This document shows, piece by piece, positions 10,592 through 45,815 of a stretch of DNA of 64,000 bases. The stretch comes from Spirochaetia bacterium. GTDB lineage: Bacteria; Spirochaetota; Leptospiria; Leptospirales; Leptonemataceae. How positions within the stretch are numbered: position 1 is the first letter of the stretch; each line of letters starts with the position of its first letter. A program made the position numbers and the translations under genes. The stretch is from positions 1 through 64,000 of the forward strand of contig VFLI01000026.1 of the NCBI GenBank assembly GCA_009885105.1, read 5' to 3'. Below the pieces are notes generated by a model. The model was not told the origin of the DNA. It searched no databases and saw only the letters and a program-made list of their open reading frames with translations.

Positions 10592-11566
10592 CTGGAGTCA
10601 CGACTGGACACAACAATAATAGACAAAGCGGTTGATCTGGACAAATGGTCGCTGGCCCGTTTGATTTCTCTTTTTGAGGACACAAGGTCCGCAGCCGCCG
10701 CTGAACGCGAAGACGTGCTCGCGAGCCTGAACAACAAAACGGGATCCGGCCGTGCAGTATTCATCGGCATCACAGGAACACCGGGCGCGGGAAAATCTTC
10801 CCTGATCGGCGAGATCGGCGCGCGGCTGCTCAATGCGTCTGGCTCCAGCTTTTCTGCAGCAATACTTGCGGTTGACCCTTCCAGCCAGATATCGGGCGGC
10901 TCGATTCTTGGAGACCGAACTCGTGTCCGTTTCCCCGTTGATGAAAGGCGGCTTTTTTTTCGCAGCCAGGCGTCGGATCTAGAACTCGGCGGCGTGGGAA
11001 GAAATACGTTCTCCGTGTGCCGGCTGCTGTATTATCTGTTCGATTTTGTGTTTGTGGAAACCGTCGGCATAGGCCAGAGTGAACTGGAAATCCAGCACGT
11101 GGCGGACAGAATCTATCTCGTCCTCCAGCCGATGGGCGGAGATCAGATTCAGTTCATGAAGGCGGGTATCATGGAAATCCCGGATGCTGTTATTCTCAAC
11201 AAGTGCGATGAGCATCGTGCGGCGCAGAAAAGCTACCACTCTCTTCGCTCCAGTCTGACCTTCGCGCGTCCGTCAGACGGCGAAAGTATTCCAATATTTA
11301 AAACCAGCGCGCATACCGGTGAAGGTCTGGAAGATCTCATGGAAAACATTTATTCGACGTCGGGAAACAGAAAATCCATGTCCGAAAAAGAAAAATATTT
11401 CTTTGAAAAATGGGTGCGCGATGAATACGGCCGAACCGGGCTGCGGCTGTTGAAAGAGAATACGGAATTGGATCTATTGTCCCGCACAGATTCATTCGAC
11501 CGGGCGCAGAAGCAGTTCTCGGAATTCTTTCTGGAAAAAATCGGCCGCGCGGATTGCGGAATATGA
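10592..11566 (+). CDS. meaB: MeaB-family GTPase, mutase chaperone (probable CTG start)
   Basis: A G3E GTPase of the MeaB/ArgK family, which protects and reloads B12-dependent mutases with cofactor. Reading from 10592 it has 324 residues, with Walker A GTPGAGKS (about 62-69), VDPSS, GGSILGDRTR, ETVGIGQSE and the base-recognition motif NKCD (about 203-206). The first TTG is at 10661, but the conserved N-terminal helix (DKWSLARLISLFED) begins before it. Between the in-frame stop of the previous gene (10580-10582) and that helix there is no ATG, GTG or TTG. A CTG at 10592 stands seven bases after AAGG, so I take that as the start; ATA at 10616 or 10619 is an alternative. Its place after meaA fits its role exactly. 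Confidence 0.88.
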   Translation: MESRLDTTIIDKAVDLDKWSLARLISLFEDTRSAAAAEREDVLASLNNKTGSGRAVFIGITGTPGAGKSSLIGEIGARLLNASGSSFSAAILAVDPSSQISGGSILGDRTRVRFPVDERRLFFRSQASDLELGGVGRNTFSVCRLLYYLFDFVFVETVGIGQSELEIQHVADRIYLVLQPMGGDQIQFMKAGIMEIPDAVILNKCDEHRAAQKSYHSLRSSLTFARPSDGESIPIFKTSAHTGEGLEDLMENIYSTSGNRKSMSEKEKYFFEKWVRDEYGRTGLRLLKENTELDLLSRTDSFDRAQKQFSEFFLEKIGRADCGI

Positions 11567-43332: not shown

Positions 43333-43887
43333 TCATTTTCCTGACATCATCAGCGCAAACCGGTCCGATACCCGGCGTGACATCTCCAGGGTTTCTCTGC
43401 CTGTCAGATAAAGCATATCTTTTCCGAAAAGCTTTATTTCCGCGACCTTCAGTCCGTTTTGCATGTCAAAAACAGAAACATGCAGAACAACCTGCAGACG
43501 ATCTTCCAGAAGAGTCCGGGTCAGAATTTCTTCGAATCGTCCCTGGAGCAGAATTGTTACATCCGTAAGTCCGCTGAATCGAATCACTTCATTCTCCGTC
43601 AAGATTCGGTTGACCGCAAAATCATTTTTTGCCAGAAGCGAGGATATTTCCGCTGATTCTCTGGGATTGTAGCCTTTTTCTCTGAGCGCGAAAGCAAGCG
43701 ATTCGGTGAGGTTGATTCTGTTTGCCTGCGTTACGCCGATCGTTTCAAAATACCCGATGCCAATCTCCCTCTCTCCGCCCAGGCTGGAAATTTTCCAGGC
43801 GGCAGTCTGGACGAATGCGACTTCATAGGAACGGCAGCCCGCAAGAATGGAACAGAGAAAAATTGCAGGGAGGACTGAAAATTTCAT
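43333..43887 (-). CDS. CsgG/LpoB-like lipoprotein
   Basis: A 184-residue lipoprotein with a signal peptide and lipobox SILAGC (Cys about residue 18). The following domain has strand-helix pattern AFVQTAAWKISSLGG, EIGIGYFETIGVTQANRINL, LTESLAFALREKGYNP, VTILLQGRFEEIL, which reminds me of the CsgG/LpoB/DUF799 type alternating fold that builds outer-membrane pores or periplasmic regulators. The ATG at 43887 overlaps the SUMF1 gene stop (ATGA); an ATG nine bases earlier is less good. It ends a four-gene operon of exported proteins. Confidence 0.65.
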   Translation of the reverse strand: MKFSVLPAIFLCSILAGCRSYEVAFVQTAAWKISSLGGEREIGIGYFETIGVTQANRINLTESLAFALREKGYNPRESAEISSLLAKNDFAVNRILTENEVIRFSGLTDVTILLQGRFEEILTRTLLEDRLQVVLHVSVFDMQNGLKVAEIKLFGKDMLYLTGRETLEMSRRVSDRFALMMSGK

Positions 43888-44492
43888 AAACAGCATCGAA
43901 ATCCAATTTGATCATTTTTGGTTTCGGGCGAAAAATAATACGTTGTGAAGCAGTCGCTCTCGTCGCCCGAAGAATGCGAGCCTCCCGCAGCGGCGGCAAT
44001 TCCCGCGCTGTTATCGGATACCCATTCCATGACATTGCCGACCATATCGTGCACGTCTCCGTCGGCTCTGCAATCTTCTTTCCAGCCCGTAATCTCAATC
44101 TGCCTGCCCGAAGTGTTGCACCTGCCTCTTTCCAGCCGATTCGCGTAAGAAAACTGCCTTCTATGAATACCCAGGCAAGCGTTTCGCCATTCAGACAGCG
44201 TGCAGAGTGATTTTTCCTGACGCTCACAGATAGCGGCGGCATCCTGGCGAGAAACGGCGGTTCTTGGAATCTGGCTGGCAACAGAGAAAAAATCATTCTG
44301 CCTGAGTTCCGATACTTCATAACGGTCAATATAGAAAGTTCTGGCAGCTGTCTGCACGAGCGCCATATTTTCAATTCTGCTGCCATGCAGATCGCGCCGG
44401 CCGGGACTCCCAGAGCCGGATATCCCGATTCCTGCGCGCGCAGCACAGGACAGGTGAATCAGCAAAATAATGATGAACAGGCGCCCTTTCAT
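43884..44492 (-). CDS. Exported SUMF1/FGE-like protein
   Basis: A 202-residue protein with a signal peptide (likely lipobox at IHLSC) and one domain of the formylglycine-generating enzyme/SUMF1 family. Landmarks are FYIDRYEVS (about 53-61), CERQEKSLCTLSEWRNACLG (about 89-108) and DMVGNVMEWVSDN (about 148-160), then a C-terminal IGFRCCL. It is short for a full FGE, and the two catalytic cysteines of active enzymes are not obviously placed, so a role in binding or in a degenerate modification is likelier. Stop/start overlaps bind it to both neighbours. Confidence 0.78.
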   Translation of the reverse strand: MKGRLFIIILLIHLSCAARAGIGISGSGSPGRRDLHGSRIENMALVQTAARTFYIDRYEVSELRQNDFFSVASQIPRTAVSRQDAAAICERQEKSLCTLSEWRNACLGIHRRQFSYANRLERGRCNTSGRQIEITGWKEDCRADGDVHDMVGNVMEWVSDNSAGIAAAAGGSHSSGDESDCFTTYYFSPETKNDQIGFRCCL

Positions 44493-45106
44493 TCCTTTCC
44501 TGCCGTTTCCTGGATTCCTTCTCTGGTGCCGCCAAATTCGACACGAACGATCACGTCGTCTGGAATATCGGGATCTTCCGCAGGCGCCGCAGCTGAAATT
44601 TCCCGGATGAAATATGTCCTCTCTTTAATGATAGAACTGCCGGCATGAACATTGATCTGCAGAATATTGAGCGCATCCACGTGTCCTCGAATCAATCCGC
44701 CTTCCATGACAGTGACCGTGCACATGTCCGGAAAATAGTATGCTTTCCCGTTCCGGGTTAAATGCAATGTCCAGCTTTCGACTGTGAGAAAATGCATTTC
44801 TGAATATTTAATCGAGTATTTCTCCCCTCCTTCCCCGATCAGCATCATATATTCCTGAGCCATACGAATTGTTCCGCTGATTTGTCGCCCGGATTTTCGC
44901 GTCAACGAAGCACGAATCAATCTTGGATCAGCGGGCGCGGGCGCAGAATGCTCCACAGCATGGCTCCGAGGCCTTAGACTGCGCAATCCGATTTCCTGTT
45001 CCATAGCACGCAGTATGGCGCCCTCGCCTATTTCTTCATCACCCAGTTCCGCCCTTGCGGTTTGGAGTGCCAGAAGCGCTGTTAGAATCCAGATGATTCT
45101 TTTCAG
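44489..45106 (-). CDS. Secreted protein of unknown function, CTG start
   Basis: A 205-residue exported protein. The first ATG is at 45004, but upstream of it the frame stays open and encodes a clear signal peptide: KRIIWILTALLALQTARA then ELGDE. The only plausible start is CTG at 45106, which shares its last two bases with the stop of the gene before it (CTGA), and has GAGG seven bases ahead. The mature part shows a central fold with GTIRMAQEYMMLIGEGGE and YFPDMCTVTVMEGGLIRG. I do not recognise it. The stop overlaps the next gene start as ATGA. It is one of four exported proteins in this operon. Confidence 0.7.
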   Translation of the reverse strand: MKRIIWILTALLALQTARAELGDEEIGEGAILRAMEQEIGLRSLRPRSHAVEHSAPAPADPRLIRASLTRKSGRQISGTIRMAQEYMMLIGEGGEKYSIKYSEMHFLTVESWTLHLTRNGKAYYFPDMCTVTVMEGGLIRGHVDALNILQINVHAGSSIIKERTYFIREISAAAPAEDPDIPDDVIVRVEFGGTREGIQETAGKE

Positions 45107-45645
45107 GGGAATACCTCAAATGGATTCTGTCTTTTTATCAAACGTTGCATGAGTTCTTTTCTTCTTTCGGCATACATTCGCATAGCGGCCTCCTTCTGGA
45201 TGTCATCCGCGGATAGACGACTGACAGTCGGAAGATTTTGAGCCTTCTTAAAATAGTAGTATTCCTCCATGATTTTCTCGAGACGGGGCAGAATGAACTG
45301 TAGAGCTTCCAGGGAGCTGTACATATCTTCACGCATTCCCTCCTGAATGGCAGCGCGACGAAGAAGAAGTTTTTTTATAAATACTGCGCGTATTTCTGCC
45401 GGCATTTCCTTCAGCTGCCTCGCATCAACGCTTTCATAATCAGAAACAGCATAGAGAAAATCGCTCCTCCGAATCAATGTGTCTCCCGAACGACCGGCCG
45501 GCGACATATCGCCCCGGGACGATTCCGCATAGTATGCGGACGATTCGCGGTAGAAAGCAGAAACATCCGGCTCCCTTCCGCATGAGAGGATGATTCCGGT
45601 TACGAACAGCGACGCGGCGCAAATATTCTTTATTTTTTTCAGCAA
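45103..45645 (-). CDS. Lipoprotein of unknown function
   Basis: A 180-residue lipoprotein. The signal peptide ICAASLFVTGIILSC has a lipobox cysteine at about residue 20. The mature part is helical, with a Tyr/Ser-rich linker (AFYRESSAYYAESSRGD) and a heptad-like region LEALQFILPRLEKIMEEYYYF. The start is uncertain: TTG at 45645 gives an ordinary n-region, while GTG at 45711 would add 22 polar residues. It is the first gene of the four-gene reverse operon, and its stop overlaps the CTG start of the next gene. Confidence 0.6.
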   Translation of the reverse strand: MLKKIKNICAASLFVTGIILSCGREPDVSAFYRESSAYYAESSRGDMSPAGRSGDTLIRRSDFLYAVSDYESVDARQLKEMPAEIRAVFIKKLLLRRAAIQEGMREDMYSSLEALQFILPRLEKIMEEYYYFKKAQNLPTVSRLSADDIQKEAAMRMYAERRKELMQRLIKRQNPFEVFP

Positions 45646-45815
45646 CTGCAGATGCTTCCTTTCAGGCCTGTCTTTTTTATCAGCTTCAGGCTGTAAAGAA
45701 TTTGCCGTCACCTTTGCGCAATAACACTTAATTTATTTCGACTGATCCGCGCAGCGCTGTATTCAGATTAATATTTTTATATTTAATGATTTATGTCTCT
45801 TAATTATTTTTATTT

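Follow-up and report, generated by a model that had tools for sequence, protein, structure and literature searches.

The window (the whole 64,000-nt stretch of DNA that was analysed) contains a minus-strand operon in which two lipoprotein genes flank the gene for a predicted secreted protein and that for an FGE-sulfatase-domain protein. The following features are relevant here.

45103–45645, minus strand: upstream gene, a lipoprotein of ~180 aa (syntenic homologues 27–35% identical)
45113–45117, minus strand: Shine-Dalgarno-like GAGGT, 6 nt before the CTG (the same GAGGT-N6-start occurs in relative G003)
45104–45106, minus strand: CTG, the predicted start codon for the 205-aa secreted protein (homologous column ATG or GTG in five relatives)
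45103–45105, minus strand: the upstream gene's TGA stop, which overlaps the CTG as CTGA (TGA invariant in a seven-genome alignment, A2)
44489–45106, minus strand: focal gene, a 205-aa protein with a signal peptide and no known family (homologues in seven of 21 other genomes of the taxonomic family)
43884–44492, minus strand: downstream gene, an FGE-sulfatase-domain protein (PF03781, E 4e-11), joined to the focal gene by an ATGA junction
43333–43887, minus strand: last operon gene, a lipoprotein weakly like NF033169 (LIC10494), preceded by an ATGA junction

No ATG lies near the signal peptide of the upstream lipoprotein gene (45640–45655, minus strand); TTG 45645 (AAGGA 11 nt ahead) is the likely start and CTG 45651 (AAGGA 5 nt ahead) a possible one.

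On the minus strand, CTG 45106–45104 and the upstream stop 45105–45103 have TG in common. The upstream frame ends ...TTT GAG GTA TTC CCC TGA, and the focal frame reads TGA (45118–45116) GGT ATT CCC CTG AAA AGA ATC ATC TGG ATT CTA, then ACA GCG CTT CTG GCA. Downstream of the in-frame stop at 45118, the focal frame has no ATG, GTG or TTG until ATG 45004, 34 codons past the CTG. A GAGG (45117–45114) stands ahead of the CTG with a 7-nt spacer, a functional distance for a Shine-Dalgarno sequence. All coordinates that an earlier, sequence-only reading had given hold, and the ATGA junctions it described further down the operon are real (44492–44489 and 43887–43884). Translation from the CTG would yield 205 aa with the N-terminus (M)KRIIWILTALLALQTARA|E. 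Judged by eye, this N-terminus is a good signal peptide, as had been claimed for the frame before ATG 45004, and a conserved motif follows it; the 34 extra residues comprise the signal peptide and then ELGDEEIGEGAILRA, with ATG 45004 encoding the M of MEQEIG.

The CTG had also been called the only usable start. It is the only NTG, but an in-frame ATT (45112–45110) exists, badly spaced at 1 nt from the GAGG. Initiation at this ATT, or at ATC 45097 or 45094, would have a parallel in infC, for which ATT is the natural start, and near-cognate starts may occur in this family (see below for an ATA in g4 meaB). We nevertheless regard it as very improbable: the ATT is far too close to the GAGG, a start at either ATC would leave the signal peptide without its KR, and the starts of relatives fall at the column of the CTG rather than at ATT or ATC.

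Searches of Pfam and NCBIfam returned no family match for the focal protein. Its relatives, 26–33% identical over the matched stretch, were found only inside its own taxonomic family (uncultured Leptospirales), and the named GenBank records that match the protein family are mostly from Leptospiraceae/Leptospirales or other spirochaete MAGs. The search of genome contigs gave no close relatives, and alignment of the focal protein in that search gave no conserved stretch. The gene order (upstream lipoprotein, focal gene, FGE-sulfatase gene, lipoprotein) is kept in seven relatives, and the −4 junction was read in all of these but G006. It is ATGA in four (G018, G003, G015 and G005), GTGA in G004 and CTGA in G011, and thus five syntenic relatives carry A or G exactly at the focal C base, which makes the overlap more than a chance arrangement. 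The sharing of bases between stop and start is conserved within the operon, and a Shine-Dalgarno-like GAGG(T) or GAGAT is retained in several relatives. The G011 junction (L008:1369) has GGAG 7 nt ahead of its CTGA, but an ATG lies ten codons on; it is possibly a second CTG start at the same locus.

The proteins of the relatives have hydrophobic, signal-peptide-like N-ends that align to the CTG-started focal N-terminus. Residues common to the aligned proteins are G22, I26, E28, I31, L32, E38 and G40, the first five of which precede the ATG at codon 35. A start at ATG 45004, the first ATG, GTG or TTG in the frame and the one that a gene finder limited to these codons would call, is a scarcely credible alternative, since it would cost the protein its signal peptide together with these five conserved residues (the G...I.E..IL motif common to all homologues). 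The sequence-only reading had asked for just this alignment; relatives appear to start at the CTG column with ATG (four) or GTG (one), upstream of ATG 45004, and homologues lacking a signal peptide and starting at ATG 45004 were not seen among them. The coding score also favours the longer, CTG-started form. The CTG thus occupies the position at which relatives have their predicted ATG or GTG starts. Four lines of evidence strongly support CTG 45106 as the predicted start of the 205-aa protein: ATGA or GTGA at the homologous column of five relatives, the kept order of genes, the presence of a signal peptide and the distance of the Shine-Dalgarno sequence from the codon.

Two further explanations address the junction itself. 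The deposited base could be wrong or polymorphic, the population carrying ATGA and CTGA being an assembly or consensus error. The source is a metagenome assembly (78% complete, one species representative), and a search for a second strain or close relative in which to check the base found none. Against the relatives of nearest pattern, however, three adjacent bases differ (AAATGA in G003 and G015, CCCTGA here), and the altered triplet still codes for an amino acid in the upstream gene, unlike a single miscall. The CTG pattern recurs in four further genes of the assembly and in dnaB and murB of independently assembled relatives, and an error of this kind carries little probability. The other explanation needs no start codon: a −1 slippage at TTC CCC TGA, where a run of four C directly precedes the stop, would fuse the protein to the upstream lipoprotein. 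The site does not match a −1 slippery heptamer, the fusion would bury a signal peptide inside a lipoprotein, and relatives have two separate genes, each with its own ATG or GTG; we consider slippage extremely unlikely.

Given the sequence, the homologous column, the gene order and the other genes that lack canonical starts, the best explanation is that translation of the 205-aa secreted protein begins at CTG 45106 (probability about 0.88). The ordinary formyl-methionine initiator tRNA would read the CTG. The junction probably descends from a −4 overlap of the kind seen in relatives, ATGA or GTGA; a change in the last codon of the upstream gene (CCC here, AAA in the relatives of nearest pattern) would have turned the start into CTG. 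Two things may make the weak codon usable: the GAGGT near the upstream gene's 3' end, and ribosomes coming directly from termination at the overlapping TGA; termination-reinitiation and the Shine-Dalgarno sequence would place the initiator tRNA on the CTG. The protein yield is probably reduced, since CUG initiation complexes studied in vitro have lower stability than those on AUG, GUG or UUG and initiate poorly (PMC11497404). N-terminomics of 688 annotated starts in E. coli found 628 ATG, 50 GTG and 10 TTG (PMC13245402).

Among close gene arrangements in prokaryotes, −4 overlaps are the most frequent, and the survey that reports this names ATGA or GTGA only (PMC10666635). The focal junction resembles them in that two bases of the downstream start also belong to the upstream TGA, an arrangement conserved in the operon; it differs in its start letter, C, and its coupling is putative. 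A report of reinitiation at non-canonical starts (PMC4648390) was rejected as a precedent, the system being eukaryotic.

Initiation at CTG is known in bacteria but rare. Proteogenomics by Baudet et al. in 2010 reportedly identified non-canonical start codons in Deinococcus deserti. Both cases concern bacterial genes with starts described as non-canonical, but that organism belongs to another phylum and the evidence there comes from peptides, whereas ours is comparative. The ATT start of infC serves the autoregulation of IF3. It shares with the focal gene a near-cognate start codon, a good Shine-Dalgarno sequence and evolutionary retention; the codon differs, and the focal gene gives no sign of autoregulation by an initiation factor.

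In this Leptospirales lineage the focal CTG would belong to a small group of such starts. The sample analysed covered 1.16 Mb of the genome itself (895 ORF-genes) and ~0.4 Mb from each of G002 and G015. A scan for genes with a coding frame that opens ahead of any ATG, GTG or TTG gave four further candidates in the genome itself: dnaB, miaB, meaB and one membrane protein. In the first three, the conserved domain begins ahead of any ATG, GTG or TTG. The dnaB gene (L033:1727–3106, minus strand) reads TGA GGA GTA AAA TCT CTG GCA CTC AGC CTT CCA, that is, GAGGAG-N8-CTG; the match to the DnaB N-terminal domain (PF00772) begins at residue 5, and the alignments of 20 relatives begin at residues 2–5. 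In miaB (L038:93–1529, plus strand), the arrangement is GGAAGGAG-N10-CTG; the UPF0004 match starts at residue 31 with no canonical start before it, the first ATG being at residue 40. The third gene lies in the window.

10592–11566, plus strand: MeaB-like GTPase gene, the second CTG-start candidate in the window (AAGGTG-N5-CTG)

CTG 10592 is the only NTG before the conserved region of meaB, and the next ATG, GTG or TTG is 23 codons downstream, within that region. The list of open reading frames begins this gene at TTG 10661, which cuts off conserved residues. The membrane protein (L046), for which a family search found nothing, is less clear-cut: its CTGA column reads ATGA in several relatives, and GAGG abuts the first CTG, the spacing being better for a second CTG that lies two codons further along.

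When non-canonical starts were sought ab initio, CTG gave five hits in 765 genes of this genome and one in 291 of E. coli (inside gcd). By itself this is too weak to prove enrichment; the argument for CTG is carried by the homologue columns. The sequence-only reading had proposed that the species uses CTG as a start in coupled operons. CTG does recur, in the four genes above, but the overlap rule fails. Where the downstream gene lies in the −1 frame, the base before TGA in these 1.16 Mb is A in 46 cases, T in 20, G in 10 and C in 15. C is thus depleted at −4 overlaps (15/91, against 127/317 control stops; Fisher P = 2e-5), which suggests that CTG is tolerated there, not preferred. Six of the 15 CTGA cases are CTGATG, several more have another nearby start, and only about four are without another plausible start; the other CTG starts lie mostly outside stop/start overlaps. 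CTG appears to be a sparse alternative start, used by perhaps 0.5–1% of genes with no coupled-operon rule.

What is new here is a concrete comparative set of predicted CTG starts in one spirochaete lineage, dnaB included. Gene finders limited to ATG, GTG and TTG would truncate such genes or miss their signal peptides, and even the replicative helicase gene has a predicted CTG start in at least two genera. With several CTG starts kept in evolution, such a lineage would be a natural system in which to ask how ribosomes come to accept a weak start codon and whether a stop/start overlap helps.

Relatives extend the set. In two species of genus g3 (G002 and G020), dnaB reads AAGGAGGAGCT(C/T)TT-CTG-ACA-GCT-CCA in intergenic DNA, with a near-consensus AAGGAGG ahead of the CTG (dnaB loci L137, L139 and L263). 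In G020 no ATG, GTG or TTG precedes the conserved motif; in G002 a TTG lies four codons past the CTG. In three g4 species whose murB is 59–73% identical (L239–L241, near 1500), the CTG is kept with AAAAGGA ahead; by comparison, internal conserved Leu-CTG codons of G015 are CTG in all three species at only 1/9. The murB CTG overlaps the end of the upstream frame, so its conservation may partly stem from that frame.

A broader reading is that start-codon discrimination is relaxed in this Leptospirales family, conserved CTG (dnaB, murB) and even ATA (meaB in the three g4 species) starts forming a regular low-yield class, perhaps through a changed IF3, initiator tRNA or 16S rRNA. We hold this to be unlikely. 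Loss of IF3 was considered as a cause of CTG use: infC was not found in the assembly (78% complete), but rplT is missing too, which makes the absence uninformative. In the sampled stretches of this genome no initiator tRNA was seen, the sole tRNA-Met(CAU) there being without the GGG/CCC stem. The ATA occurs in meaB of the three g4 species (L099, L101 and L103, near 1500), where no NTG precedes the conserved region. It is common to all three, with a Shine-Dalgarno-like sequence ahead (AAGGAG-N8-ATA-GAA-AAG in G015), and it is a possible conserved start of meaB in these species.
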